Assembly: GCA_016786885.1 (NCBI GenBank)
Contig: JAEUVO010000079.1
Span: 1-64,000 of the forward strand
From: Chitinophagaceae bacterium
GTDB taxonomy: Bacteria; Bacteroidota; Bacteroidia; Chitinophagales; Chitinophagaceae
Length of the DNA stretch: 64,000 bases
Direction of reading: 5' to 3'
Shown: positions 2,885 to 51,020 of the stretch, piece by piece
Layout: each line of letters starts with the position of its first letter
Position numbering within the stretch: the first letter of the stretch is position 1
The notes under the pieces: generated by a model
Databases searched by the model: none
The model's input: the letters and a program-made list of their open reading frames with translations, nothing else
What the model was told of the DNA's origin: nothing
Made by a program: the position numbers and the translations under genes

Positions 2885-2969
2885 GGCGAATTTCGTATCT
2901 GTTTCAAACCCTTAACAGCATTGGCTTTTCTCAGATATTTGTACTACTTTTAAATCACTAAAATTCACT

Positions 2970-5900
2970 ATGAGATTCTATCCAATTCCCTTGATTGCTG
3001 CTTTACTGTTTTTATCTCTGTCAGTACCTGCACAGGATGATTCGCAATACCGTCTCTTACTCAAAAGCGGATCATTTACCCCAGCTAAAAGTATTACCCC
3101 TGAAAGGCTTGAAACTTTCAACAGCCTTGTTGCCCGTACTGGCGGAAAGGCATTTGCTATTATACAGTTTGAAGCTATCCCAACAGAACATGAGAAACAA
3201 CAACTGTTGCAATCAGGGATTGAACTGCTGGAGTATGTGCCCAATAATGCATATACAGTTTCTGTGAGTGGTCAGCTAACCTCAGACTTTCTTACACGAA
3301 TGAAAGTAAGAGCCGTAGTTGAACTTTCTGCCCAACAAAAAATGCAGCCAGAACTGGCCAGGGGTCTATTGCCGGCACATGCAGTTCAGATACCCGGCAC
3401 CGTCAATGTTTGGGTCAGTTTTCCTACATCCTTTTCTTTTGAAGCTGTGAGTCAGACATTGCAAAAAAATAATTTTGATATTCTTAATACGGATTACAAA
3501 ATCTATAGAATAATTGCTTTACGCACCGCAACTGTCAGATTGGAAGAATTAGCTTCATTCCCATTTATTGAATATGTACAGGCTGCTCCTAAACAGGACC
3601 AGGAATTGAATTACAATAGCATGTTTGCTTCAAGAGCAAATGTATTGAAGGCTCCATTGGCAGTTGGTGGCGATAATTTGAATGGCCAGGGAGTGGTTAT
3701 CGGTCTTGGTGACAATGGAGATATACAATCGCATCTTGATTTTACTGGACGTTTGATAAACAGGGCAGGGGAAGTAATGAGGGCACATGCCAGTCATGTT
3801 GGTGGAACAGTAGCCGGGGCAGGAATTATACAGGAATTATATGCCGGTTATGCGCCCAAAGCAACACTACTAAACCAGGTTTTCTCAGGTATATTTTCCA
3901 ACGCACCGGCTTATGTTCAGGATCATGACATGGTGTTAACCAATAACTCGTTTGGCTCGGTAGTAAATGATTGTTATTATAATGGTTTGTATGATCTGAC
4001 TTCCCGTATTCTTGATCAGCAGGCAATTGATCTTCCTGAACTACAACAGATATTTGCTGCAGGAAATGATGGAGGATTAACCTGTACTCCCTATCCTGCA
4101 GGGTTTAAAACAGTGTTAGGCGGGTATCAATCGGCAAAAAATGTATTAACAGTTGGTAGCACCGACTATAAAAGTGATGTAAGCGGTTTTTCCAGCAGGG
4201 GCCCCGTAAGAGACGGACGATTGAAACCCGAGATTATGTCACAAGGGCAATTTGTAGCCTCTACGTGGGTCAGTAATTTTTACAGTTATAATAATGGAAC
4301 CAGTATGGCTGCACCCGGTGTTACTGGCGGAGCCGCATTATTGGTACAGCGATACAGACAATTAAATGCAGGAACTAATCCTGAGAATGGATTGATGAAA
4401 GCATTATTATGCAACGGAAGTGATGACAGGGGCAACAATGGTCCTGATTTCAGGTATGGCTTTGGAAGAATGAACCTGCTTCGTTCAGTGGCAATGATGG
4501 AGAATGCAACATATTTTAACTCGACGGTCGCCAATACTATTACCAATACTCACACTATTAATGTGCCTGCCAATACTGCACAATTAAAAGTATTAGTGTA
4601 TTGGCAGGATCCGCCTGCGTCTGTTATGGCAGCAAAAACCCTTGTAAATGATGTCGATTTAGAAGTAATTACCCCATCCAGTTCAACAATTCTTCCGGCT
4701 ATCTTAGATACATTACCTGCTAACGTAAACAATGCAGCCACTGCAGGTGCCGATCATATGAATAATATAGAGCAGATCGTAATAAATAATCCTGCTGCAG
4801 GAGCATATGATATCAGGGTAAAAGGAACAGCAATAGTTCAGAACCCTTCGCAAGAATATTTTCTTGTATATGATATTTTGCCAGTGAGCCTTGCACTTAC
4901 TACTCCTGTTGGTGGCGAGCATATGGTTCCGACTGTATCGCCATTTGATACTTGCTATATTCAGTGGGATTCATATGGTGATCCGGCTAACACTTTCACT
5001 CTTGAATTTTCTAGTGATAATGGTACCAACTGGTCAACGTTAAGTAATGCAATCCCAGCTGCAGATAGAATATACAGCTGGGGAGTACCTAATATACCAA
5101 CAGACCAGGCAAGAATAAGGATTACTAAGAACAGTACAGCTTTTACACAAACCAGCTCTCCTTTCACTATTACCACAATGAATACTGTTTCATTGGACGC
5201 AGTACAATGTGAAGGTTATATTAAGATTAACTGGACAGCTGTTCCCGGAGCAACAGATTATGAAGTAATGATGTTACAGGGAGATGAGATGGTATCTGTT
5301 GCAACAACGACTTCTTTAACCTATACATTCAGTGGATTGTCAAAAGATACACTTTATTGGGTAACGGTACGCCCAAGAATAAACGGTAATGCCGGCAGAA
5401 GAACAGTTGCTGTGTCACGGCAGCCAAATGACGGAACCTGTAGTGGATCAATTTCAGACAATGATCTGAAAGTGGATGTAATAGTTTCTCCTGCTGCATC
5501 AGGCAGGGAGTTTACTTCAACTGCTTTGTCAAATACAACTGCCATTACTATCCGTATCAAAAATCTTGATGATAATGTTTCTTCAGGAAATATCAATGTG
5601 AGTTATTCAATTAACGGTGGGGCAGCCGTTAATGAAGTAATAACATCACCAATAGCTGATATTGCAGCCGGAGGAAGCATTGATCATACGTTCACCACAA
5701 CGGCTAACCTTTCTGTAGTGGGAACATATAGCATACAGGTTACAGCCAGCAAAGCTTCGGATCCGGTTACAACTAATAACAGTCTTACCAAAGTATTTAA
5801 ACAATTGGACAACCAACCAATTCTTTCGGGACAACTTCCCTGGCTGGATAATTTTGAATCGGCTGCTGTTCAAACTATCATTACTGATCAGATGGGATTA

Positions 5901-8390
5901 TCTGGCAGAGACCGGTACGATTTTATTAATAATACTGTCTATGGCCAGGCCCGGACCTTTATCAACACCGGTATAGCTTATTCCGGTACTAAGGCAATAA
6001 CACTGGACCAGGACAGGTATGTTACCGGAGGTAATGTAGATTCTCTGACCGGTACATTCAACTTGGCAACATTCAATACAGCCACAGACGATATTCGTAT
6101 AGATTTCAGGTATAAAAATCATGGACAGAAATCCAATGCAGCAAACAAAGTATGGATAAGGGGAAATGAGAATGACAGCTGGGTTGAAGTGTATGATCTT
6201 TATGCCAATCAAAATCCTGCCGATGGTTCTTACAAACTTTCAGGAAGCATTGAAGTGAGTGATTCATTGGCAGCACATTCACAAGTATTTTCATCCAGTT
6301 TCCAGGTAAGGTGGGGTCAATGGGGTGAATATCTTACTGCAGATGACCTTTATGCCGCAGGCTACACATTTGATGATATACGTATTTACAGGGCTGTGGA
6401 TGATATACAACTGGTGAGTATTGATACGCCTTATACAGTGAGTTGCGGGTTAAATACTACAGTTCCGGTAAAAGCAACTGTCAGAAACACTTCTAATGCA
6501 GTTATTAATAATATACCCGTTGTTTTAAGGGTAAATGGAGTAGTAATAGCAACTGAAACAATTGCCAGTATTCCTGCCAGTTCTGCATTGCAATACACAT
6601 TTACTGCTACGGCAGATCTTTCAGCCACGGGTGATCATAGTATTGAAGTATGGACAGCACTGGTAACAGATAATTACAAGGAAAACGATACCGCAAGGAT
6701 CACGGCAAATAACCTTCCTTTAGTAACAACTTTTCCTTACCTGCAAAATTTTGAATCAGGAAACGGGTCATGGTATGCAGGTGGAACAAGAAATACCTGG
6801 GAGTATGGTACTCCTGTCTCGCCAAGGATCAACCGGGCTGCCAGTGGCAGTAAGGCATGGAAAACAAATATTGCCGGATATTATAATGACGAGGAGTATT
6901 CATACCTCTATTCACCTTGTTTTAATATTTCCTCTATGACCAACCCAACACTGAGCCTCAGTATTGCAATGGATATTGAGGATTGCGGCGCCGTTTTATG
7001 TGATGCGGCATGGGTTGAGTATTCGGCTGACGGAATTACATGGACAAAACTAGGAACTACCGGCCAGGGTACTAATTGGTACAATAAGGATTACTCAGGT
7101 AACCAGTTATGGAGCCAGCAAAACTATATCCGTTGGCATGTAGCCACCACAGCGTTGCCCACTACTAATAACAGTAAACTAAGGCTTCGTTTTGTATTCC
7201 GGTCGGATGAGGGATTAGGTAAAGATGGTATTGCCGTTGACGATATTCATATTTATGATAATGTATATGGCATTTATGATGGAGCGACAATGGCATCACC
7301 CGTAACCCAAACCATCAATGCAGGAGTTAACAACTGGGTAGATTTTATAGAAGGCGGGAAATTGGTTGCTTCTGTTCACCCGGCCGGGCAGCAAATGGGA
7401 GCTACCAATGCCCAGGCTTATATTCACACCGGTGCTGTTCGTATAGACAGTGACCAGTTCTATCATAACCGAAATATCACTATTCAGCCCGATAATGCAT
7501 TTTTGTCATTAACAGATTCAATACTTGTTCGTTTTTATTTCCTTGACACTGAAACGGAGGCATTAATAAATGCAACGGGATGCAGTTATTGTCATAAACC
7601 ATCCACTGCTTATGACCTTGGTGTTTCAAAGTACAGTGATCCGGATAATAATTTTGAAAATGGTACAGTGACAGATAATAACCAGGGCATCTGGACATTT
7701 ATTAATAGTACAAAAGCAACCAAAGTTCCTTTTGACAAAGGCTACTATGCCGAATTTAAAGTGAATAATTTCTCAGAGTTTTGGCTTAATAATGGTGGTT
7801 TTGACGCCAATCAACCATTACCGGTGCAATTGGTCTCCTTTTCGGCAAGAAGAACAAATCTTAAAGACGTACTGGCAGAATGGGTTACTGCTTCGGAGTA
7901 TAATGTCAACCGGTTTGAAATAGAAGTGGCAAAAGGTAATATTGAGTTTCAGCAGAATCGTTTTGTCAGGATTGGTGAAATAAGAAGCCAGGGTAATTCC
8001 GACAGGCAGCAGCACTATAGCTTCACTGATATAGAGAACAACAAATCAGGTGTTCGTTATTACCGGTTGAAGATAGTGGACGAGGATGGCAGTTTCAGTT
8101 ATTCTCCTGTTCGGCCGGTTGTGTTCAATGATGAACTGAAATGGCAGGTAACGCCTAATCCATCATCAGGACTGTTCAATCTTATTTACCAGGCAAACAG
8201 CGGGGAAATGGTTTCTGTAAAATTGTACGATATCAATGGCAGAATGGTGCAGCAGTTTGATAACCTGTCAAATGGCTTTATCCAGAAGCTTACTATTAAC
8301 CTGGGCGAAGTTAAATTTTCAAAAGGTCTTTACCTGCTTGAAGTAAAATCAGCCAGGCAAAACCATACATTTAAACTCTTAAAGCAATAA
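2970..8390 (+). CDS. Secreted subtilisin-like (S8) protease with T9SS type A sorting domain
   Basis: This is a very large (1,806 residue) exported serine protease. A signal peptide covers about residues 1-22. The S8 catalytic domain (about 230-510) carries Asp248 in LGDNGD, His273 in HASHVGG (a variant of HGTHVAG) and Ser445 in NGTSMAAP, with the oxyanion Asn in AAGNDGG. Then come a pre-peptidase-like beta domain, a fibronectin III-like domain (about 735-820), two CARDB-like domains, and two modules that each open with a LDNFES or LQNFES motif, as in MAM/jelly-roll domains. The last 80 or so residues (TPNPSSGLFNL to KGLYLLEV) are a T9SS type A sorting domain, so the product is probably moved across the outer membrane by T9SS and released or anchored. 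Substrate unknown. A hairpin terminator follows the stop codon. Confidence 0.93.
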   Translation: MRFYPIPLIAALLFLSLSVPAQDDSQYRLLLKSGSFTPAKSITPERLETFNSLVARTGGKAFAIIQFEAIPTEHEKQQLLQSGIELLEYVPNNAYTVSVSGQLTSDFLTRMKVRAVVELSAQQKMQPELARGLLPAHAVQIPGTVNVWVSFPTSFSFEAVSQTLQKNNFDILNTDYKIYRIIALRTATVRLEELASFPFIEYVQAAPKQDQELNYNSMFASRANVLKAPLAVGGDNLNGQGVVIGLGDNGDIQSHLDFTGRLINRAGEVMRAHASHVGGTVAGAGIIQELYAGYAPKATLLNQVFSGIFSNAPAYVQDHDMVLTNNSFGSVVNDCYYNGLYDLTSRILDQQAIDLPELQQIFAAGNDGGLTCTPYPAGFKTVLGGYQSAKNVLTVGSTDYKSDVSGFSSRGPVRDGRLKPEIMSQGQFVASTWVSNFYSYNNGTSMAAPGVTGGAALLVQRYRQLNAGTNPENGLMKALLCNGSDDRGNNGPDFRYGFGRMNLLRSVAMMENATYFNSTVANTITNTHTINVPANTAQLKVLVYWQDPPASVMAAKTLVNDVDLEVITPSSSTILPAILDTLPANVNNAATAGADHMNNIEQIVINNPAAGAYDIRVKGTAIVQNPSQEYFLVYDILPVSLALTTPVGGEHMVPTVSPFDTCYIQWDSYGDPANTFTLEFSSDNGTNWSTLSNAIPAADRIYSWGVPNIPTDQARIRITKNSTAFTQTSSPFTITTMNTVSLDAVQCEGYIKINWTAVPGATDYEVMMLQGDEMVSVATTTSLTYTFSGLSKDTLYWVTVRPRINGNAGRRTVAVSRQPNDGTCSGSISDNDLKVDVIVSPAASGREFTSTALSNTTAITIRIKNLDDNVSSGNINVSYSINGGAAVNEVITSPIADIAAGGSIDHTFTTTANLSVVGTYSIQVTASKASDPVTTNNSLTKVFKQLDNQPILSGQLPWLDNFESAAVQTIITDQMGLSGRDRYDFINNTVYGQARTFINTGIAYSGTKAITLDQDRYVTGGNVDSLTGTFNLATFNTATDDIRIDFRYKNHGQKSNAANKVWIRGNENDSWVEVYDLYANQNPADGSYKLSGSIEVSDSLAAHSQVFSSSFQVRWGQWGEYLTADDLYAAGYTFDDIRIYRAVDDIQLVSIDTPYTVSCGLNTTVPVKATVRNTSNAVINNIPVVLRVNGVVIATETIASIPASSALQYTFTATADLSATGDHSIEVWTALVTDNYKENDTARITANNLPLVTTFPYLQNFESGNGSWYAGGTRNTWEYGTPVSPRINRAASGSKAWKTNIAGYYNDEEYSYLYSPCFNISSMTNPTLSLSIAMDIEDCGAVLCDAAWVEYSADGITWTKLGTTGQGTNWYNKDYSGNQLWSQQNYIRWHVATTALPTTNNSKLRLRFVFRSDEGLGKDGIAVDDIHIYDNVYGIYDGATMASPVTQTINAGVNNWVDFIEGGKLVASVHPAGQQMGATNAQAYIHTGAVRIDSDQFYHNRNITIQPDNAFLSLTDSILVRFYFLDTETEALINATGCSYCHKPSTAYDLGVSKYSDPDNNFENGTVTDNNQGIWTFINSTKATKVPFDKGYYAEFKVNNFSEFWLNNGGFDANQPLPVQLVSFSARRTNLKDVLAEWVTASEYNVNRFEIEVAKGNIEFQQNRFVRIGEIRSQGNSDRQQHYSFTDIENNKSGVRYYRLKIVDEDGSFSYSPVRPVVFNDELKWQVTPNPSSGLFNLIYQANSGEMVSVKLYDINGRMVQQFDNLSNGFIQKLTINLGEVKFSKGLYLLEVKSARQNHTFKLLKQ

Positions 8391-8394
8391 AAAA

Positions 8395-8421
8395 ACCCGT
8401 CTCGTCTTAAACGAGACGGGT
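8395..8421. terminator. Bidirectional hairpin between the S8 protease gene and the 67-residue gene
   Basis: A perfect 10-bp stem (ACCCGTCTCG / CGAGACGGGT) with a 7-nt loop. An A-run precedes it and a T-rich stretch follows, so it can end transcription from both sides. It lies between two convergent genes. Confidence 0.85.
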
Positions 8422-8439
8422 ATATTTTAGAATAGCTTT

Positions 8440-8643
8440 TTACCAGCCTTGTTTTGCAATACCGGCTTTGATAGCAGCCATCGCTTTTTCTTCGCCCATT
8501 AGTGTGGTAAGTTTATTTCCTTTGCCATCATGCCCCTGGGCCATGTAGGCTCCTTTAGCTGTTTTTGTAATAACGGCATCCAGCATTTCCACCCCTTTCT
8601 CTTTGGTTTTTACATTGTAGGCTGTAATTTTTACATCTGACAT
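8440..8643 (-). CDS. Small conserved-looking protein of unknown function
   Basis: A 67-residue, lysine-rich soluble protein starting MSDVKITAYNVKTKEKG. It has no signal peptide, membrane segment or cysteine. The pattern KTKEKGVEMLDAVITKT followed by AYMAQGHDGKGNKL suggests a short beta-hairpin domain ending in a helix (GEEKAMAAIKAGIAKQG). I do not recognise a family. It stands alone, separated from gyrB by a terminator, and shares a bidirectional terminator with the convergent S8 protease gene. Its clean start, sensible composition and terminator at its end support a real gene. Confidence 0.7.
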   Translation of the reverse strand: MSDVKITAYNVKTKEKGVEMLDAVITKTAKGAYMAQGHDGKGNKLTTLMGEEKAMAAIKAGIAKQGW

Positions 8644-8722
8644 GGTTTAAGTTTTTGCGTTAGTAAAGGCTGAAATTACGGTTTCCGGGCTTTTTAAAGG
8701 GGGAAATTTCTAAAATCATATT

Positions 8723-8746
8723 AAAAAGCCCCGAATTTTCGGGGCT
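8723..8746 (-). terminator. Rho-independent terminator of gyrB
   Basis: Stem AGCCCCGAA / TTCGGGGCT (9 bp, 2-nt loop), followed on the minus strand by TTTTTAA. It lies about 65 bp past the gyrB stop codon. Confidence 0.85.
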
Positions 8747-8809
8747 AAAATGTTTACAGTGAGCTTGTTATAAGTTCAGGATTGATGCTTATAAACATGT
8801 CAGAAATAT

Positions 8810-10810
<2,001 letters not shown>

Positions 10811-10836
10811 TTAAAAAATGAAAAAAATATAACTCA

Positions 10837-10844
10837 CAAATGTA
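10837..10844 (-). promoter_or_regulatory. Promoter -7 element for gyrB
   Basis: TACATTTG on the minus strand is an exact match to the Bacteroidota -7 consensus TAnnTTTG, 48 bp upstream of the gyrB ATG. I do not see a clear TTTG at -33. Confidence 0.6.
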
Positions 10845-10917
10845 CGAAATCAGGGTGGGGTAACCGGAAAAACAAGACTAAATTTTACACTTATTTTCGG
10901 TTATTGTGGATAAAAGA

Positions 10918-41572: not shown

Positions 41573-43372
41573 TTATTGCCTCACCATGGGATCTTCATTA
41601 GCACTCATCCGCAATACAGCCGGGCTTTGATTTTTTATATCATATTCTGTTCCCAGGAAAGCAATTTTTATTTTTCTTCCATCGCTGTAATTGAAAGTGA
41701 TTGTATAATCTTTTACTTCATAAGTGCCGGAACCGGGATTAAGCGCCGGGTTGATGCATTCATTGTATTCATGATACAAAACTTTTACAGCCCCGTTATC
41801 AGTAAATCGTCCATCAGCCGTAAAACTGATGACAGGAATTTTTCCATACGCTTCACTCATTACATAAGTACCATTGAATCTTGCACCATCCACCGGGGAT
41901 AGTGAATAAAACTTATGGTCAGTCTGGTTGGCAGTGATGATGAGTGTATTTCCTTCCATTCGCAGTGGAATATCGGCATAAGGCATTTTCAGCACCCCTC
42001 TTCCGTTACTGAAGCTGTAAGTTCCCCAATCCCGGTGATATAGTTCCGGTGGTATTCTTGTATCTAACCCATCTAAACCTTCTGAATAAAACTTAGACCC
42101 GAAGTATGCCTGGCCATTGGATAAGAAAATGGGTGAATAAACATTATAACGCAAACCTGATGATGCCGATGTCTGCATGGAAATACCCTGCCATACACCC
42201 ATAATGCCGCCACCATCAGTTGTGCCGGACGACAGTAAAGGCTCCGACCCGTCCGTAAACTGCAGGGAGAATAAAAAATTATTAATCGCAGTTTTGTATG
42301 GCTGCCGGTCATCTGCATAAAAAGAAGACATGCTGCAGCTCCTGTTGATGGTTCTTGATTTTAAAACCGCCACTCGTTCAAAACGATTGTTGATTTTAAT
42401 AACAAATAAATCCAGTCCGTATTCAGGAGGATAATCGCCTCCACCGATTCGTACGCCGCCATTGCAGCGGATATACTCCCAGCCCCGGAAAGATTGTTTC
42501 GCCTGCTCCTTTTTATAATTGCCTTCCCCGAGGTAATTCATTTTTGTGCCGTTGTACATAGCTGCTGCTTCATCAAAACTTTGCTGTAATGCCTGTTCTA
42601 AGCTACCGCCAAAATTCAATGGTTGCATTATCTGCATGGCCAGATGTTCACCTTGTGGTAAATCCAATGGTTTAAAAACAACACCGTCCTGAAATTGCTG
42701 ATGGCTCCATCCCACAGGCGGAGAGTATGTCATCAATCCAAATTTCGCTGAGCCGGCATTATTTGCCTTCACCGGAACATTGTTAATGGTATTGCTGCTC
42801 ACTGTTGGCGATTTTGTTTTATCCAAATCAATTGATTCTAAAAAAGTGGTCATTTGCGGCAAGTAAGCTTCGTCATTCAGGCTGCTGCGTATGCTTACTG
42901 ATTTTCCATGGCCGCTGATGACTGTTAAAAAAATATATACATCGGCGCCATCCACTTTGGCAGGGGCTGCAGCGGCCACAATCTCCCAACCATCGGCTGT
43001 GCTTTGTGTTTCTGGTTTTGGAGATTCTTCAACTTTGTACGGCGTTGCCACTAATTCATTCCATTCACGGGTAAAATCTTTTTGAGCATCACCGGTACTC
43101 AGTTTGCTTGCAAACATGGCTATAATACAAAAGCCGCCATTGCTTTTATTCACATTCATATAATTCATCACACCGGGCTTGGCATCTTTGCTCCAGTTTT
43201 TGGGAGGAGTATAGGTTACAATGTCAAATGTTTCTGTTTGGGCGGAAACCTGCAGATACATTGCTGCCATGAAAACAGAAAGCACAAGAGTGCGACGCAA
43301 GGAACGATGCCATGAAATACCGCAGCTGGTAAATATAAATCTCAGACTATTTGTATTATTCTGCTTCTTCAT
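41573..43372 (-). CDS. Exported protein of unknown function, last gene of the five-gene operon
   Basis: 599 residues from the ATG of MKKQNNTNSL; a longer frame starts nine codons earlier. A signal sequence follows a basic N-terminal stretch (RRTLVLSVFMAAMYLQVSAQ). Two units with the same opening are visible: FDIVTYTPPKNWS (about residue 50) and FGLMTYSPPVGWS (about 215), each about 150 residues, so an internal duplication is likely. A C-terminal part from about 400 (IMGVWQGISMQ to DGRKIKIAFLG) looks like a lipocalin-type beta barrel. No catalytic motif. It overlaps the NHL gene by 17 bp, which suggests translational coupling. I do not recognise the family. Confidence 0.85.
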   Translation of the reverse strand: MKKQNNTNSLRFIFTSCGISWHRSLRRTLVLSVFMAAMYLQVSAQTETFDIVTYTPPKNWSKDAKPGVMNYMNVNKSNGGFCIIAMFASKLSTGDAQKDFTREWNELVATPYKVEESPKPETQSTADGWEIVAAAAPAKVDGADVYIFLTVISGHGKSVSIRSSLNDEAYLPQMTTFLESIDLDKTKSPTVSSNTINNVPVKANNAGSAKFGLMTYSPPVGWSHQQFQDGVVFKPLDLPQGEHLAMQIMQPLNFGGSLEQALQQSFDEAAAMYNGTKMNYLGEGNYKKEQAKQSFRGWEYIRCNGGVRIGGGDYPPEYGLDLFVIKINNRFERVAVLKSRTINRSCSMSSFYADDRQPYKTAINNFLFSLQFTDGSEPLLSSGTTDGGGIMGVWQGISMQTSASSGLRYNVYSPIFLSNGQAYFGSKFYSEGLDGLDTRIPPELYHRDWGTYSFSNGRGVLKMPYADIPLRMEGNTLIITANQTDHKFYSLSPVDGARFNGTYVMSEAYGKIPVISFTADGRFTDNGAVKVLYHEYNECINPALNPGSGTYEVKDYTITFNYSDGRKIKIAFLGTEYDIKNQSPAVLRMSANEDPMVRQ

Positions 43373-44468
43373 ATTGACTTGTTTTAGGATTCCATTCATG
43401 TTTACAAAAGGTAGTTACTATTCCATCAGCGGAAAGCTTCCGGATATAACTATTATTTGAATTGCTGCGGTCTATGATATATAAGTTGCCATTTCTGTCG
43501 AAAGCAATAGCGTTTGGAGAGTCAAAACGGGCCATCAATGCTTTGCCATCTGCATAACCGGGCTCTGCAGCACCTGCCGGATTGCCTGAAAAATTAAATT
43601 TACCGGTGCCTGCCACCGTCGTTACTTTATTGTTGGCGATTTTTATAATTCGATTCAGCCTTGAATCGGAAATATAGATATCGCCGTTTTTTGCAATAGC
43701 CATTCCACTGGGGTTGGTAAGTACAGCGGATGATACCGGGCCTTCTTTATACACGGAATTAAAAATTGTTTTATCGCATTGGCCTGCCAGAGTAGTAATG
43801 ATACCTGACGGCGAAATTTTTTTAATGCAATGGCTTACGCTGGCATTCACATACAGATTGCCGGCTGCATCGCAGGCCATACCACGGGGATAATGTAAAC
43901 GAAGCACACTATCATTGCCATTTTTTATTGTTGTTACCATACCCTCTGCACTAATTTTCCGGATAACATAATATCCGCTGCTACCCTGGTTATTGGTCCA
44001 CTCATTATCTGTAACATAAATAGTTCCATTATTATCTATGGCTATATTTTCAAGATTTACAAAAGTTGCAGTTAAACGGTCTCCATCCTTATACCCTGCA
44101 TTTCTTGTTCCTGCAATAGTGGTAACAACAGCATCAGGTGTTATCTTGCGGATGCAAGGCCCATCGGCCACATATAAATTATCTGCTGCATCAATGGCAA
44201 TGCCTTCGGCGTCATTAAACCCGGCCTGATTTGCTTTTCCATCTTTTCCCATTCGGGCACCACCGGCAAACAGTTCTGCTTTTCCAGCGGGAGAAATTTT
44301 TATTATTTTATTATTTCTGCCGGTTACAAACAGATTGCCTTTACTGTCTGCAACAATGCCGAAAGAAGCGGCGAAGGCTCCGGTAAGTTTGGGGGTTTGG
44401 GCAGTCATTTTATTTGCCGGCAAAAGAAAAGCAAGTAGAACCAGCCGAAAAAGAAATATTTTTTTCAT
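43356..44468 (-). CDS. Secreted NHL-repeat beta-propeller protein
   Basis: 370 residues with a signal peptide (MKKIFLFRLVLLAFLLPANKMTAQ). The whole mature chain is NHL-type repeats, about six blades, with motifs such as GRNNKIIKISPAGK, AIDAADNLYVADGPCIRKIT, ENIAIDNNGTIYVTDNEW, MACDAAGNLYVNASVSHCIK and AIAKNGDIYISDSRLNRIIK. NHL propellers bind proteins, peptides, sugars or nucleic acids; no enzyme active site is visible. Fourth gene of the operon, starting 59 bp after the TPR gene and overlapping the 599-residue gene. Confidence 0.9.
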   Translation of the reverse strand: MKKIFLFRLVLLAFLLPANKMTAQTPKLTGAFAASFGIVADSKGNLFVTGRNNKIIKISPAGKAELFAGGARMGKDGKANQAGFNDAEGIAIDAADNLYVADGPCIRKITPDAVVTTIAGTRNAGYKDGDRLTATFVNLENIAIDNNGTIYVTDNEWTNNQGSSGYYVIRKISAEGMVTTIKNGNDSVLRLHYPRGMACDAAGNLYVNASVSHCIKKISPSGIITTLAGQCDKTIFNSVYKEGPVSSAVLTNPSGMAIAKNGDIYISDSRLNRIIKIANNKVTTVAGTGKFNFSGNPAGAAEPGYADGKALMARFDSPNAIAFDRNGNLYIIDRSNSNNSYIRKLSADGIVTTFCKHEWNPKTSQYEEAE

Positions 44469-44527: not shown

Positions 44528-46594
44528 TTATTTAAGTATTCCTTTTAAGGGCCCTTCATTAAAATCCCAGCCGGAGTTTATGCCAAACTTAGAACCGATA
44601 CCCACACTTTCTTTTATAACACCGGTGATATGTCCGGTAGTCTTTACTTCATTTTCCAATCCGACATCTGATATGCCATTGTTTCCGTCAAAGGTTATAA
44701 AAACTGATTCTGCGGCTTTTACGCCAACCATTGCTTTTACCGGACCAGCTTTTATGCCCAGCTCAAATTTTACCCCAATGCCAACACTGAGCGTTGACTT
44801 TTTTGTTTTAAAATCTTTTTCAAATTCAAATATTACTCCTTCGCCTGCACGAATAGAGAATTTTTCGCAGTTGAGTTGTATTTTACCTATACCAATACCC
44901 AGCTCCACATCAATGGGACAATCATACTCTTTGATGGAATTACTTTCTTTGGTAAGAGTCGCGGATTTAAATTCGCAAGGCTTAATTATTTTCGTCTGAC
45001 AAATTCCACCCATCATTTCCATGTATTTCATAATAAATGCATAGTACTGCATCCTGAAATTATCTTTGCTTACCGGGTTGAGGCTGAGGTAGTGCCAGTA
45101 AACTAATTCATCAAAATAAGTATTGTATATAAGTTTTCCTTTTTTTTGCATCTCTTCTGTGAGGTATGCAAATTTTGGCAGGTAAGTATTCGCCAGTTCA
45201 TCTTTTGCTGCGCAAATCTCTTCATCTGTGGCACAGTTTGCATGTGAAGCCCCTTCACCGGAGGGACATCGCAGAGCAAAGGCACCCATCATTTCCTGAT
45301 GCTTTCGTTGGTATTCTTTTTCTACCGCTGCCATATCTGATGTGAATACTTTTAAAGTTTTGTTGTGAAACTCACTGAGTTCCTTTTTGTATTCATCCAG
45401 TACTTCTCCTGCCATTATCTGGCACTGTTCATAAAATGGGTTTGCTATAAATTCATACTTATTTAATTTCCGTCCAACGCCACCGGCATTCATTATTTCC
45501 ATCCCTTTCTGCATTTGTTTTTGAGCCAGTTCCCCATACATAGCACCGTACTTTTGTCCCTGCAGTGCTATCATTTTTCTAAATGCATTATGTTCTGCAT
45601 CTGACCGTACTGCATCGTTTGTACTGATGCATTGAGACGGCAAATCATATTTGAACTGATTAAAGTATTCAGGCAGTTTTATACGGGGTCTTACGAGGTT
45701 AGCAATTCTTCTTCCTTTTTTTAATTTCCGGAGTTTTAAGTCAACCGTTTTGCTATAACCGCTTTTAATTGATTTTTCAAAATACTCTACAGCTTTTTCC
45801 GTATGCCCTCTTGATTCTTCAATAAACCCAGCGGTGCCGCATGCTTCGGGATGTTCCGGTTCTATTCTCATACAACGACCGAGGTAAACCATCGCTGTAT
45901 CCAATTCTCCCAAACCAGCATATGCCTGGCCCATGTTATTTAATAACATACTGTTGTTGGGAAAAGATTGTAAAACATATTTCAAAATGGGAATAGCTTT
46001 TTGTTCAATGCCCGCCATATTCAGCAAGGCTGCACAATTGTTAAGTAATAAGCCATTATCGGGATTATTGGCTGATGCTTTTATCATTAACAGCAGAGCT
46101 TCTTCCTGGTAATTGCTGTACCAGCCTGTTACGGCTGCATCACCCATTTTATCTCCATCGTTTTTATATTTTGCAGCAATTTTCTGAACGGAGGTGGCCA
46201 CACCCGGAGTAAATTTTTTTGAAAGCTGATTAAATAAATCATTTAAAAAATTGACCAGTTCTGTTTCGGTAAATACTTTTTTAGGAATGGAAGCAAGCAA
46301 CGTGGTATTCTTTGAAGGAAATTTCCAGTTGTCAACATTTCCATAGGCGCCTGGGTCAGTATAAGAAGATACACCCGGCTTGTTAGGGCTATTTTTTGTG
46401 GCTCCGGCTATCTGTTTTTGTTGCTCCCCTGCATCCTTCAGTGCTTTATTCACCATCGTATCGCCGCCATATTTTTTCATTAGTGCATTAGCATCCTTCA
46501 TCATTTTATCTATTTCAGCCTGGGTAGGTGCCTGGGCAAATAAAAATTGTGCCGAAATAAAAAACAGGAAGATGATGAAGAATATTTTTTTCAT
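44528..46594 (-). CDS. Secreted TPR protein with a Gly-rich C-terminal domain (operon member)
   Basis: 688 residues with a signal peptide (MKKIFFIIFLFFISAQFLFAQ). TPR-like repeats lie around 165-290 (LLNNMGQAYAGLGELDTAMV; SRGHTEKAVEYFEKSIKSGY), then a long helical region (about 330-560) with a Cys-containing insert (RCPSGEGASHANCATDEEIC). The last ~120 residues are beta-rich: CPIDVELGIGIGKIQLNCEK, GEGVIFEFEKDFKTKKSTL, and FDGNNGISDVGLE. This end and the TPR part match the protein at 31840-33669, so the two are full-length paralogues that differ most in the middle. Not a family I can name. It starts 9 bp after the 385-residue gene. Confidence 0.87.
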   Translation of the reverse strand: MKKIFFIIFLFFISAQFLFAQAPTQAEIDKMMKDANALMKKYGGDTMVNKALKDAGEQQKQIAGATKNSPNKPGVSSYTDPGAYGNVDNWKFPSKNTTLLASIPKKVFTETELVNFLNDLFNQLSKKFTPGVATSVQKIAAKYKNDGDKMGDAAVTGWYSNYQEEALLLMIKASANNPDNGLLLNNCAALLNMAGIEQKAIPILKYVLQSFPNNSMLLNNMGQAYAGLGELDTAMVYLGRCMRIEPEHPEACGTAGFIEESRGHTEKAVEYFEKSIKSGYSKTVDLKLRKLKKGRRIANLVRPRIKLPEYFNQFKYDLPSQCISTNDAVRSDAEHNAFRKMIALQGQKYGAMYGELAQKQMQKGMEIMNAGGVGRKLNKYEFIANPFYEQCQIMAGEVLDEYKKELSEFHNKTLKVFTSDMAAVEKEYQRKHQEMMGAFALRCPSGEGASHANCATDEEICAAKDELANTYLPKFAYLTEEMQKKGKLIYNTYFDELVYWHYLSLNPVSKDNFRMQYYAFIMKYMEMMGGICQTKIIKPCEFKSATLTKESNSIKEYDCPIDVELGIGIGKIQLNCEKFSIRAGEGVIFEFEKDFKTKKSTLSVGIGVKFELGIKAGPVKAMVGVKAAESVFITFDGNNGISDVGLENEVKTTGHITGVIKESVGIGSKFGINSGWDFNEGPLKGILK

Positions 46595-46603
46595 ATTGAA
46601 TTA

Positions 46604-47761
46604 TTATTGTGTATCTGTTGCTTTTGTTCCGGCACTATTGAGAAATTCAATATTGGTGAACTTGATTTTTATCTCATCGTATCCATTTCTACTAATAATC
46701 ACCTTGGCTTTATCGTTTTCTTCCACCGGGTCAAATACCTGTTTGTAACTGATGATAGATGCACCGCTGAGTTTGAGGGTGTAGTTTAAGGCAGCCTTGC
46801 CCGTACTGCTCGTACCAATAGTAGTATGAGACCAGGCAGTGATACTAAAAACCATGTTTTGTTTGTTAATAAAAGCATTTAATAGCGGGATAAACATCGG
46901 ACACCCGGAATGAAACTGGATGGTAATGGGGTCGTAACTGTTTTTTCTGCCGAGGAGATTATTGGCGCCCATTTCCAGTTTATATAATTCGGTCTCCTCC
47001 AGGTTAGTGTTTATTTTATTATCGCCGGGTAATTTTACACCATCTGCCCAAACAGACATCCACATGAAAACTATATCGCCATAAACTGCATTTGTGTTTT
47101 GAGTTGCTATCAATTCCGGAATCTGCATTGAAGTGCGGGGCGGTGTTATTTGTGGATTGACACTGCCGCTCCCTTCGAGAGAAATATTATATGTCACCCT
47201 TGCAAATAATGGTTTTTGATTCTTGTTACTGAATGACCATTTTCCTGCTGCAGCATTGTACTCTGTCTTTATTTCATCCCGGTTGGTGATTCCTCCCTGT
47301 GAATTGGGATCCCACCTGGGAAAGGAAGAGAACTTTGCGCCGGGGTTATTATTCAATGAAGGGTGATCGATCAACGCTGAACCATCTGCCTGTATATCCT
47401 CTTTTCTGAAAGAGTATAGAAAATGCTTTTCATCAGGGTTTGTAAAATAGGTAACTGTAAATTTTGAACCAACCGGTATAGGCCTGCTATCCAGGTTGAA
47501 GATGTGCCACTTTTCTTTAAAATAGTAAGCACCGACTGGATGCTGGTTAATGGTTACCCCTTTCTCTGAAACGGGAATTGCAAAAATGATTGCAGAGCCA
47601 TTATTATTTAACTCAGCAACATCAAGTATCGTACAATCATAGTTACAGGAAATATTTTCTTTTGTAGCAACATGGGTGAGCTGTTGCTGGCCAAAACTGC
47701 TTAATACAATTATCATGAACAAGGCAAGCAATGTTCTCTTATAAAACATATAGTGTTTCAT
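46604..47761 (-). CDS. Secreted protein with DUF7452-like N-terminal region and Hcp-like C-terminal region
   Basis: 385 residues with a signal peptide (about 1-24, ending VLSSFGQ). Residues ~28-135 have the pattern HVATKENISCNYDCTILD, then NQHPVGAYYFKEKWHIFNLD and PIPVGSKFTVTYF, which I connect with a repeat domain of secreted Bacteroidota proteins (DUF7452-like). The last ~150 residues (SYDPITIQFHSGCPMFIPLL, then LNYTLKLSGASIISYKQVF, then YDEIKIKFTNIEF) recall the beta-barrel of the type VI secretion tube protein Hcp; this is a tentative resemblance. No enzyme motif. Second gene of the operon, 10 bp after the first. Confidence 0.8.
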   Translation of the reverse strand: MKHYMFYKRTLLALFMIIVLSSFGQQQLTHVATKENISCNYDCTILDVAELNNNGSAIIFAIPVSEKGVTINQHPVGAYYFKEKWHIFNLDSRPIPVGSKFTVTYFTNPDEKHFLYSFRKEDIQADGSALIDHPSLNNNPGAKFSSFPRWDPNSQGGITNRDEIKTEYNAAAGKWSFSNKNQKPLFARVTYNISLEGSGSVNPQITPPRTSMQIPELIATQNTNAVYGDIVFMWMSVWADGVKLPGDNKINTNLEETELYKLEMGANNLLGRKNSYDPITIQFHSGCPMFIPLLNAFINKQNMVFSITAWSHTTIGTSSTGKAALNYTLKLSGASIISYKQVFDPVEENDKAKVIISRNGYDEIKIKFTNIEFLNSAGTKATDTQ

Positions 47762-47771
47762 TTAAGGAATT

Positions 47772-48209
47772 TTACTGGTTTAAAAGTTTTACCCCCACCG
47801 TCAATGGATAAGTCAGTGTTTCCCCGGTGCATTTGTTTTTCATCTTAATGCTGCAAATAATCCTTTCCATACCAGCGTTAAAAAAGACCTGCCATTTAGC
47901 TGCGGTGCTGTTGGTGTAGCCGGGTATTACATTCAGCGTTGTCATATACGCTTCTTGTACTACTTCAAAATTGTCGGCACCTGCTCCTATAATATTCAGT
48001 TGAAAGCCATTCCCGCCATTGCTTCCTGGAAAAACATCTATTACCATTTGTCCTGAGGCAACGAAATAAATCTGGTCGGCGGTGGCTTTGCACCTGCCTT
48101 GTTGTTTGGGTATTTGTGCAAGGGAATTACTGGTAAAACCAGCAATAAAAAAACAAATAAGTGCAATTAGTTTAACTGCCATTGCTGAATGTTTAATAAA
48201 CTGTTTCAT
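47772..48209 (-). CDS. Small secreted protein, first gene of the five-gene operon
   Basis: 145 residues. The signal peptide ends near FTSNSLAQ (about residue 32). The mature ~113 residues are mostly predicted beta strand, starting RCKATADQIYFVASGQMVID. They contain three cysteines, two in the pair IICSIKMKNKCTGETL. A single Ig-like or beta-sandwich domain is likely from the alternating pattern, but I do not recognise it. It is transcribed from the divergent region that holds the ATCACCCGAAA repeats, and its high position in the operon suggests an abundant product. Confidence 0.8.
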   Translation of the reverse strand: MKQFIKHSAMAVKLIALICFFIAGFTSNSLAQIPKQQGRCKATADQIYFVASGQMVIDVFPGSNGGNGFQLNIIGAGADNFEVVQEAYMTTLNVIPGYTNSTAAKWQVFFNAGMERIICSIKMKNKCTGETLTYPLTVGVKLLNQ

Positions 48210-48266
48210 ATTGTTTAAGTTTTATTGTTTAATTTTTTTTTAAGCTTAGCTGTCAGTTTGTTGATT

Positions 48267-48274
48267 CAAATGTA
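48267..48274 (-). promoter_or_regulatory. Promoter -7 element of the five-gene secreted operon
   Basis: TACATTTG on the minus strand is an exact TAnnTTTG match 57 bp before the first ATG of the operon. No TTTG is found at the -33 spacing; a copy of ATCACCCGAAA sits there instead. Confidence 0.6.
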
Positions 48275-48295
48275 GCTGTACCAAATATGCTGTCT

Positions 48296-48344
48296 ATCAC
48301 CCGAAAGAGTGATTCGGTCAGCCTCTGGTAAGAATCACCCGAAA
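48296..48344. promoter_or_regulatory. Direct repeats ATCACCCGAAA: candidate sites for the adjacent LuxR-type regulator
   Basis: Two exact 11-bp copies, at 48296-48306 and 48334-48344, with starts 38 bp apart. The first is part of a dyad: ATCAC, 8 bp, GTGAT. They lie between the secreted operon and the two-component genes, beginning 22 bp upstream of the operon -7 box, the position expected for an activator site. Confidence 0.6.
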
Positions 48345-48411
48345 CTGGTATTTTAAAAGGATTGTTTGATTTTTTGAAAGAGAATGTGAACCTTTATAAG
48401 GAATACTATCC

Positions 48412-50400
48412 ATGATTTCATTTAAACCATATTTAATTGCTTCGGGTCTGCTGATGTTGTTTGTAGCCAATTGTCTGAGGGCGCAGAACATTCCGGATAG
48501 TTTACTTCAAAAACTTGCCTCCTCATCCAATGATTCTGCCAAAGGAATTACCCTGTTGGAAATTGGTGAATCTATTGAACAAACAACACCGGAAAAAAGT
48601 ATGGATTATTACAGGCAGGCATTAGTAACCGGCCAACGGATAAAAAATAACCGGGTCATTTTATCATCTTATTATGATATTGGGGTTTGCTATATCAACC
48701 TGAACAAAATGGACAGCTCTATCAGTTTTCTTGAAGCAGCTATTCCTTTTGCCCGGTTATTAAATGATACGTTGAGTGAAGCAAAGCTTTTGGGAAATAT
48801 TGGAAATGCCTGGCTCCATAAAAAAGACCGGGCCACGGCTATTGAATACTATTTACGGTCAGCAAGAATTTGGGAAACCTGCAGTGACCAGCGATACCTG
48901 ACCATGCTCTATTCCAATATCAATGCATTATTGGATGAGCAGAAGGAACACAACAGGGCGCTGGAATTTGGGAACAAGGCTATAGCCCTCGCCAAAAAGA
49001 TTGGTGATAATTATTCATTGGTGAACGGGCTGGTTAATCTTTCCACCACTTACAGCCATCTTGGCCAGCATGAAAAAGAGTATGAACTGCTAGTGCAGGC
49101 TTTACCACTTGCAAAAAAGAATGAAGACCTTGACCAGATTGCAACGACATATCACAATATGGGAGATTATTTTTTCAAGAAGGAAAAATTTTCGGCTGCA
49201 CTGGAAAAATACCTGGAGTCGCTCAACTATGTAAAACAAATGGGCAACAAATATCATCTGTGTGAGATAAGTACTGTGCTTGCACTGGCTTATCATAAAC
49301 TCAATCAAGACAGCAAGGCACTGCAGTATATTCAACAGGCGGAGCAATTAGCAGATGAGGTGGGGGTAAGAACCAAGCTGAAAGAGATATACCTTACAAG
49401 GGCGGAGATAGAACAAAAGGCGGGTAATTATAAACTGGCCAGCGAGTATTATTCAAAAACTCTTACTGTTAGCGACTCATTATTTAAAACGGAGACCAGT
49501 GAAAAGGTTGCTGAGGCAGAGGCCCGGTATCAGAATGAAAAAAAGCAACAGGAAATAGTACGGCTGGAGAAGGATACACAGATAAAGTCGCTTACTATTA
49601 AACAAAAATCAACCCTGAATTATTTCCTGATTGCATCAGTCGCTGCATTACTGCTCGTTGGCCTTTTGGTTTACAGGAATCTTCGCCACCGCAACCTTCT
49701 GGCAAAACAACAGGATGAACTGCAGCAACAGCGCATCCGGGAACTGGAAAAGGATAAACAATTAGTGGCAGTAGATTCAATGCTGAAGGGGCAGGAAGAA
49801 GAACGGAGCCGGCTGGCCAAAGACCTGCATGACGGCCTGGGCGGATTATTATCAGGCGTAAAATTTTCACTAAGCAATATGAAAGACAATTTAATTATAA
49901 CCCCGGATAATATGACTGTGTTTGAACGGTCATTAGACATGATTGATACTTCCATTAAAGAACTGCGGCGGGTTGCCCACAATATGATGCCGGAAATGCT
50001 TACTAAATTCGGATTGGATGAGGCTTTGAAAGAATACTGCAATACTATTAATTCGACAAAACTGATTAACGTGAAATACCAGTCGCATGGAATGGAAGGA
50101 AGAATAGATAAATCAACGGAGATAATTATTTATCGTATTATACAGGAATTGCTGAATAATATTCTAAAGCATGCTGGCGCAACAGAAGCGTTTGTGCAAC
50201 TGATAAAAGAAGACAGCAGGCTGAATGTAGTGGTGGAAGACAATGGAAAAGGCTTTGACACTGCTTTGCTAAAAAATAATAAAGGTGCGGGGCTTACAAG
50301 TATCCAATCAAGAGTAGATTATTTGAAGGGGCAGTTAGACATTCATTCAGAAAAGGACAAAGGAACTTTGGTAAATATCGAATTCAATGTATTATTATGA
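48412..50400 (+). CDS. TPR-containing sensor histidine kinase (NarX/HisKA_3 type)
   Basis: 662 residues. A signal sequence (about 1-24) precedes a periplasmic sensor made of TPR repeats (about 30-370; for example YDIGVCYINLNKMDSSISFL). A coiled coil leads to one membrane helix (YFLIASVAALLLVGLLVYR, about 403-421). A second coiled coil leads to HisKA_3 with the phosphorylated His473 in SRLAKDLHDGLGGLLSG, then HATPase_c with QELLNNILKHAGA, VEDNGKGFD and GAGLTSIQSRV. All catalytic motifs are present. It overlaps the regulator gene by the ATGA at 50397-50400. It is divergent from the secreted operon and probably controls it. Confidence 0.93.
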   Translation: MISFKPYLIASGLLMLFVANCLRAQNIPDSLLQKLASSSNDSAKGITLLEIGESIEQTTPEKSMDYYRQALVTGQRIKNNRVILSSYYDIGVCYINLNKMDSSISFLEAAIPFARLLNDTLSEAKLLGNIGNAWLHKKDRATAIEYYLRSARIWETCSDQRYLTMLYSNINALLDEQKEHNRALEFGNKAIALAKKIGDNYSLVNGLVNLSTTYSHLGQHEKEYELLVQALPLAKKNEDLDQIATTYHNMGDYFFKKEKFSAALEKYLESLNYVKQMGNKYHLCEISTVLALAYHKLNQDSKALQYIQQAEQLADEVGVRTKLKEIYLTRAEIEQKAGNYKLASEYYSKTLTVSDSLFKTETSEKVAEAEARYQNEKKQQEIVRLEKDTQIKSLTIKQKSTLNYFLIASVAALLLVGLLVYRNLRHRNLLAKQQDELQQQRIRELEKDKQLVAVDSMLKGQEEERSRLAKDLHDGLGGLLSGVKFSLSNMKDNLIITPDNMTVFERSLDMIDTSIKELRRVAHNMMPEMLTKFGLDEALKEYCNTINSTKLINVKYQSHGMEGRIDKSTEIIIYRIIQELLNNILKHAGATEAFVQLIKEDSRLNVVVEDNGKGFDTALLKNNKGAGLTSIQSRVDYLKGQLDIHSEKDKGTLVNIEFNVLL

Positions 50401-51020
50401 TTCGTGTATTTATTGTGGATGACCATCCGGTTGTAATAGAGGGCATCCACTCTTTACTGCAAAACGAAAAAGGTATTGAATGGGCCGGGCAGGCTATGAA
50501 TGCCCAGTCTTGCCTGGGATACTTTGTAAACAATACAGCTGATGTGGTTTTAATGGATATCAGCATGCCAGGAATGGATGGAGTGGAATTATGTAGTGTT
50601 GTGAAAGAAAAGTATCCGGGTATCATGGTACTGGGTTTAAGTACATTTAACCAGGGGCTGTACATTAAAAAAATGATGGAAAACGGAGCTTCCGGTTATA
50701 TATTAAAAAACTCTTCCAAAGAGGAATTGATAAAAGCAATCCACACCGTAAATGGCGGCGGTATATTTTTTAGTGGGGAAGCCGGAGAAGCTTTACAAGA
50801 GTATCAAAGATCCTCCATGCAGGAATTGCCGGTACTATCAGCAAGGGAAAAAGAGATATTAGAATTGATAGCAGAAGGATATACTAATCCCCAAATTGCC
50901 GAAAAGATATTTCTTAGTTCTTTTACAGTTGATAGTCATCGGAAAAACTTACTTGCAAAACTGGGTGTAAAAAATACGGCAAGTTTGATACGATTGGCGG
51001 TAGAGAGAAAACTTATTTAA
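50397..51020 (+). CDS. NarL/LuxR-type response regulator
   Basis: 207 residues. The receiver domain has D8/D9, phosphoacceptor D54 (VVLMDISMPGMDG), a Ser/Thr in LGLSTF and Lys in GYILKNSS. The LuxR-type helix-turn-helix is at about 140-205 (LPVLSAREKEILELIAEGYT; FTVDSHRKNLLAKLGVKNTA). The start codon overlaps the kinase stop, so the two are made together. The two ATCACCCGAAA copies in the divergent region are the most likely binding sites. This pairing is inferred from position. Confidence 0.94.
   Translation: MIRVFIVDDHPVVIEGIHSLLQNEKGIEWAGQAMNAQSCLGYFVNNTADVVLMDISMPGMDGVELCSVVKEKYPGIMVLGLSTFNQGLYIKKMMENGASGYILKNSSKEELIKAIHTVNGGGIFFSGEAGEALQEYQRSSMQELPVLSAREKEILELIAEGYTNPQIAEKIFLSSFTVDSHRKNLLAKLGVKNTASLIRLAVERKLI

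Follow-up and report, generated by a model that had tools for sequence, protein, structure and literature searches.

A candidate operator pair between a NarL/FixJ-type two-component system and a divergent secreted-protein operon in Chitinophagaceae

Results

The locus and its genes

The window analysed here, a stretch of 64,000 nucleotides from the genome of a Chitinophagaceae bacterium, contains two divergent transcription units separated by a 202-bp gap (48210-48411). The leftward operon (minus strand) begins at 48209. Its genes code for a 145-aa orphan with a putative signal peptide (gene 1, 47772-48209), which has no relative in 394 genomes of the family, a 385-aa DUF7452 secreted protein (gene 2, 46604-47761), a 688-aa secreted TPR protein (gene 3, 44528-46594), a 370-aa NHL-repeat beta-propeller (gene 4, 43356-44468) and a 608-aa protein of the 'ETFDIVTYTPPKxW' family (gene 5, 41573-43399), which has no Pfam match and is represented by relatives in homologous modules as well as in paralogous ones. 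The proteins of the operon have signal-peptide-like N-termini. Besides the ETFDIVTYTPPKxW family, TPR proteins and DUF7452 proteins recur in the divergent operons of such modules, and in nearly all readable modules the first protein of the divergent operon is, as judged by eye, signal-peptide- or lipoprotein-like. In another genome of the same genus (G010, positions 6544-10851 of locus L079) relatives of genes 4 and 5 (82% and 68% identical) stand together with a weaker relative of gene 2 and without a kinase/regulator pair, thus the end part of the operon exists also under other control.

The rightward unit (plus strand) begins at 48412 with a gene for a 662-aa sensor histidine kinase (48412-50400), which consists of N-terminal TPRs, a transmembrane segment, HisKA_3 (PF07730, E 2.9e-08) and HATPase_c (PF02518, E 6e-11). 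The first-pass annotation had assigned a LuxR-type regulator to this transcript, and such a gene is indeed found downstream of the kinase gene, with which it overlaps by 4 bp: a 207-aa NarL/FixJ-type response regulator (50397-51020) with a receiver domain (PF00072, E 3.4e-25) and a GerE HTH domain (PF00196, E 4.8e-19). This is the proposed DNA-binding protein.

The repeat pair

Two exact copies of ATCACCCGAAA lie in the gap on the plus strand (48296-48306 and 48334-48344), 38 bp apart start to start, at the coordinates given by the first-pass annotation, which had also recognized that a GTGAT forms a dyad with the first copy; this GTGAT (48309-48313) pairs with ATCAC (48296-48300). Its 11-bp repeat unit has to be extended: the copies are real, but the true unit is an 18-20 bp dyad, whose left part is the 11-mer. 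Site 1, the proposed regulator dimer site for the operon promoter, is an 18-bp imperfect dyad (ATCACCCGAAAGAGTGAT, 48296-48313, extended 48295-48314). Site 2 (ATCACCCGAAACTGGTAT(TTTAAA), 48334-48351), the proposed dimer site for the kinase promoter, is the same unit with its own, weaker right arm CTGGTATTTT.

The exact pair occurs once in the 3.98-Mb genome. Taken alone it is weak evidence, since Markov-1 shuffling of the 202-bp gap produced an exact 11-mer pair in about 1.8% of cases, and the whole window contains six close exact 11-mer pairs where 2.2 are expected. The number of one-mismatch matches in the window (3 vs. 1.3 expected) was unremarkable. When matched 21-mers 34-41 bp apart were looked for blindly, the true pair came up in some gaps, but so did unrelated AT-rich matches; this search was dropped as evidence. 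Judged from the sequences, it is comparative conservation, not single-sequence statistics, that lifts the repeats above chance.

Conservation of the sites

Through a relative of the TPR protein of the operon we reached L074, a contig of Chitinophagaceae on which the genes are arranged divergently in the same way; its gap contains AGAATCACCCGAAACTGGTATTTTAAAnnGATTGTTTGA, near-identical to copy 2 of the window and its flank. Gene 1, as an orphan, could not serve as an anchor for footprinting, and gene 2 gave distant matches only, in the genus; the kinase and the regulator were the anchors that worked. Searching 388 family genomes for the pattern, and looking for orthologues of the regulator, we gathered 14 homologous gaps; they belong to 13 genomes of Chitinophagaceae and to about a dozen genera.

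All 14 gaps contain two dyads 37-38 bp apart start to start, with the consensus AATCMCCnGAAAMRGKGATTT, an imperfect dyad of 18-20 bp in which ten columns are invariant in all 28 copies. The mean pairwise identity across the gaps was 0.82 at each site, as against 0.32 in the spacer between them; it was likewise 0.32 in the stretch from the operon -7 box to site 1, and on the kinase side 0.79 in the TTTG zone and 0.65 in the -7 zone. The right arm of site 2 is weak in the window's own clade. Phylogenetic footprinting, which the first-pass annotation had proposed as a check, thus supports an operator of the activator type. Imperfect dyads of this length upstream of a putative regulated promoter are also what would be expected of a NarL/FixJ regulator.

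Promoters and geometry

Promoters of the primary sigma factor of Bacteroidota have TTTG at -33 and TAnnTTTG at -7 (PMC7366714). The operon has a perfect match to the latter, TACATTTG on the minus strand (CAAATGTA on the plus strand, 48267-48274), and differs from such promoters by the absence of the -33 element: at the -33 position, about 20 bp upstream of the -7 box, no TTTG was found. Both features had been described in the first-pass annotation, as had the distance of 22 bp between the -7 box and the first repeat, and comparison of the gaps agrees with them: the box (CAAANNTA on the plus strand) and site 1 are 21-22 bp apart in 10 of the 14 gaps, and the other four have near-matches. On the other side, 13 bp downstream of site 2, there is a TTTG (48365-48368, plus strand) and 20 bp past it a -7-like element AACCTTTAT (48389-48397, plus strand). 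The kinase promoter TTTG-N20-AACCTTTAT fits the Bacteroidota frame with a poor -7 (AACCTTTA); in 10 of the 14 gaps this element is AACCTTTA or AATCTTTA. Both departures, the missing -33 of the operon and the off-consensus -7 of the kinase gene, fit activator dependence of the putative promoters.

If transcription is assumed to start 5-8 nt past the -7 boxes, which predicts starts near 48259-48262 (minus strand) and 48401-48404 (plus strand), the centre of site 1 falls at about -43 to -45, in the place of the missing -33 element, and that of site 2 at about -58 to -62 of the kinase promoter. Such centres correspond to activators of class II and class I, respectively. With the start so assumed, the operon promoter combines the traits of activator dependence: TAnnTTTG, no TTTG at -33, and a putative site there at a fixed distance. 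The activator-dependent layout that the first-pass annotation ascribed to the operon is supported by the conservation of the sites, their fixed distance from the -7 box and their co-occurrence with the regulator, but the kinase promoter at copy 2 had been overlooked. Site 2 has a fixed place before this promoter in the 14 gaps, and with a -33 TTTG only 13 bp downstream of copy 2 it is as likely to act in autoregulation as to be a second operon site.

Co-occurrence of the sites with the regulator

Regulator orthologues (76-86% identical) were found in 11 genera of the draw searched, that of the window included, whereas the next best regulator relatives in the genus are at most 60% identical. 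The strict tandem site pattern was present in 10 of 374 family genomes, and among 295 genomes drawn across the class only in the window's own. Nine of the ten genomes with the pattern are among the 11 genomes with a regulator orthologue (Fisher p 1.5e-15, or 4.7e-14 without the window; these values overstate independence, as the genomes share phylogeny). As to the exceptions, one orthologue genome (G398) has the pair and misses the strict pattern by a single mismatch in site 2, another (G245) lacks the pattern and its contig ends inside the kinase gene, and the tenth genome with the pattern (G383) has a contig end inside the kinase gene as well.

Of 42 genomes from the window's own genus only one has the orthologue, yet its occurrences are dispersed among 11 genera of the family. 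For the kinase/regulator locus (window 48412-51020) this distribution suggests horizontal transfer or repeated loss. Some loci deviate from the common arrangement. In L074 (1745-3715) the kinase orthologue, the site pair and the divergent operon are present, but the kinase gene has no regulator gene beside it, its neighbour being a convergent 550-aa ORF. In L161 (G122, about 2969-3570, minus strand) the kinase gene is cut to 171 aa, without TPRs, membrane segment and the phosphoacceptor-histidine region, and this shortened gene stands between an intact site pair and an intact regulator orthologue. L162 (2664-6433) carries two kinase genes of this type in a row, and these have one regulator orthologue and one site pair in common.

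Sites elsewhere in the genomes

The first-pass annotation proposed a genome-wide search by which a regulon could be defined. One-mismatch matches to ATCACCCGAAA are in excess in the genome (94 vs. 45 in the reversed control; only four are exact), but a calibrated scan with a model built from the 28 sites (R1) left essentially the window locus: besides the two sites of the window, nothing but a lone weak one (C10:40852, E 0.009), in the gap after an uppP-like gene, rose above background. With this model no further good sites before other genes were found in the window's genome, which speaks for one locus rather than a multi-operon regulon.

There are extra sites in other genomes. In G418 (L195) a tandem pair, with CAAAAATA at 21 bp and no adjoining kinase gene, precedes a secreted-protein operon; in G076 (L193) a single site, with CAAAAGTA at 21-22 bp, is flanked by a lipoprotein gene and a gene for a TPR kinase; and G089 has an extra site pair. 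In L195 and L193 the distance to the -7 box is again 21-22 bp, and the sites stand before secreted-protein or lipoprotein genes. A site in G117 (C285) lies inside coding sequence and was taken as chance.

Paralogous modules

The genus contains paralogous TPR-kinase/regulator modules, one of them in the window's genome (L087, G000:C27). Like the window, they have a divergent secreted-protein operon and two dyads upstream of the kinase gene; these diverged sites, 36-41 bp apart, keep an ATC-N12-GAT frame with an A-run in the middle. They differ from the window in the sites themselves, ATCCCTTAAAAACAGGAT and ATCATTAAAAAGCATGAT being matched to the recognition helices TVDTHRKN and TVNTHRKS. The helices group with the sites: TVDSHRKN goes with ATCMCC, TVDTHRKN mostly with ATCCCT or ATCATG, and TVNTHRKS with ATCATT. 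In 22 modules helix distance correlated with site distance (Mantel r 0.79, permutation p 2e-4), also for the paralogues alone (r 0.69, p 0.002) and the orthologues alone (r 0.40, p 0.019), where it must be noted that the paralogue sites were chosen by eye on the ATC-N12-GAT frame and that the statistic ignores shared ancestry. Spacer distance showed no correlation with helix distance (r 0.09, p 0.14). This covariation gives strong support, if not proof, to the view that the sites are read by the adjoining regulator.

Several paralogous modules, e.g. L082, L088, L093 and L098, are without a clear pair. In another class of paralogues (L083 5143-5185, L052, L069), whose regulators have the helix LHTVDSHRKNLLTKF, the place of the 37-38 bp pair is taken by a near-perfect palindrome, ATCCCCTGAACAGGGGAT, which has a half-site 23-24 bp upstream.

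Discussion

We consider it probable that the repeats are the operator pair of a dedicated and probably self-regulating two-component system of the NarL/FixJ type. The observed basis is the conservation of the sites, their fixed geometry, their co-occurrence with the regulator and the covariation with its recognition helix; from these we infer binding by the regulator, dependence on phosphorylation, activation rather than repression, and the transcription starts. In the proposed mechanism the regulator (50397-51020) would be phosphorylated by the adjacent TPR histidine kinase, and one phosphorylated dimer would fill each 18-20 bp dyad. Site 1 would stand in for the missing -33 of the operon, so that the bound regulator would contact RNA polymerase and turn on the secreted-protein operon (class II geometry), and from site 2, just upstream of the kinase -33, the regulator would increase its own production (class I geometry). 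The system would serve the window locus alone in this genome.

It is possible, although rather unlikely, that the same regulator represses one or both promoters, or that two dimers cooperate at one of them, without autoactivation. Repression is compatible with the sequence, the strictly kept spacing of 37-38 bp is what interacting dimers would be expected to show, and the tandem pair of G418, which has no adjoining kinase gene, indicates that two sites can serve one promoter. However, both sites lie clear of the -7 boxes and the expected starts, the operon lacks the -33 element exactly at site 1, site 2 is conserved together with the -33 and -7 zones of the kinase promoter, and in G076 a lone site is found at the 22-bp distance. 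It is much less probable that the sites are read by another regulator, such as a global one or a NarL-type paralogue encoded away from this locus, with the neighbouring regulator as a bystander. A paralogue could cross-bind, given the related ATC-N12-GAT dyads at the paralogous modules, and in L074 the sites are present without an adjoining regulator gene; nevertheless, the strong co-occurrence of the sites with the regulator orthologue and the helix-site covariation speak against this reading, and a global regulator would fit badly with a genome that has essentially no further copies. That the repeats arose by chance, or that they have nothing to do with transcription (being an RNA element or the end of a mobile element), is hardly credible: an exact pair would arise by chance in about 2% of such gaps, but 14 gaps across about a dozen genera conserve the sites while spacer and flanks are unconserved, the sites are upstream of both expected starts, and no Rfam match was found.

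Going beyond the single locus, we think it somewhat more probable than the opposite that Chitinophagaceae have a large family of paralogous systems (TPR-sensor kinase, NarL-type regulator, divergent secreted-protein operon), all with a two-dyad operator of the same geometry, in which operator and recognition helix have co-diversified, so that the paralogues would be insulated from each other and their specificity would follow a readable code. If this code is true, the helix TVDTHRKN of the paralogue in the window's genome (G000:C27) would go with ATCCCTGAAAAACAGGAT. The diverged pairs of the paralogues may serve as a natural data set on how the DNA specificity of NarL-type regulators changes. 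At the window locus the defined site, the geometry and the apparently clean one-locus regulon would make the regulator, the secreted-protein operon and the autoregulation directly testable.

It is instructive to compare the system with NarL/FixJ systems with HisKA_3 kinases, such as NarX-NarL, UhpB-UhpA, LiaS-LiaR and VraS-VraR, among which autoregulation is common. The window system shares with these the HisKA_3/HATPase kinase, the regulator composed of receiver and GerE domains and the dyad-like sites upstream of putative target promoters; unlike them, it has a kinase with an N-terminal TPR sensor region, two sites between two divergent promoters of the Bacteroidota type, and a single-locus regulon. 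We know of no NarL/FixJ-family site that matches AATCMCC-N6-GKGATT, and the literature searched contained neither the 11-mer ATCACCCGAAA in connection with bacterial regulation nor any account of an operator that belongs to a Bacteroidota system of the TPR-kinase/NarL type. The system itself is thus ordinary in kind; the apparent novelty lies in the site, in its geometry and in the specificity code that the paralogues seem to follow.
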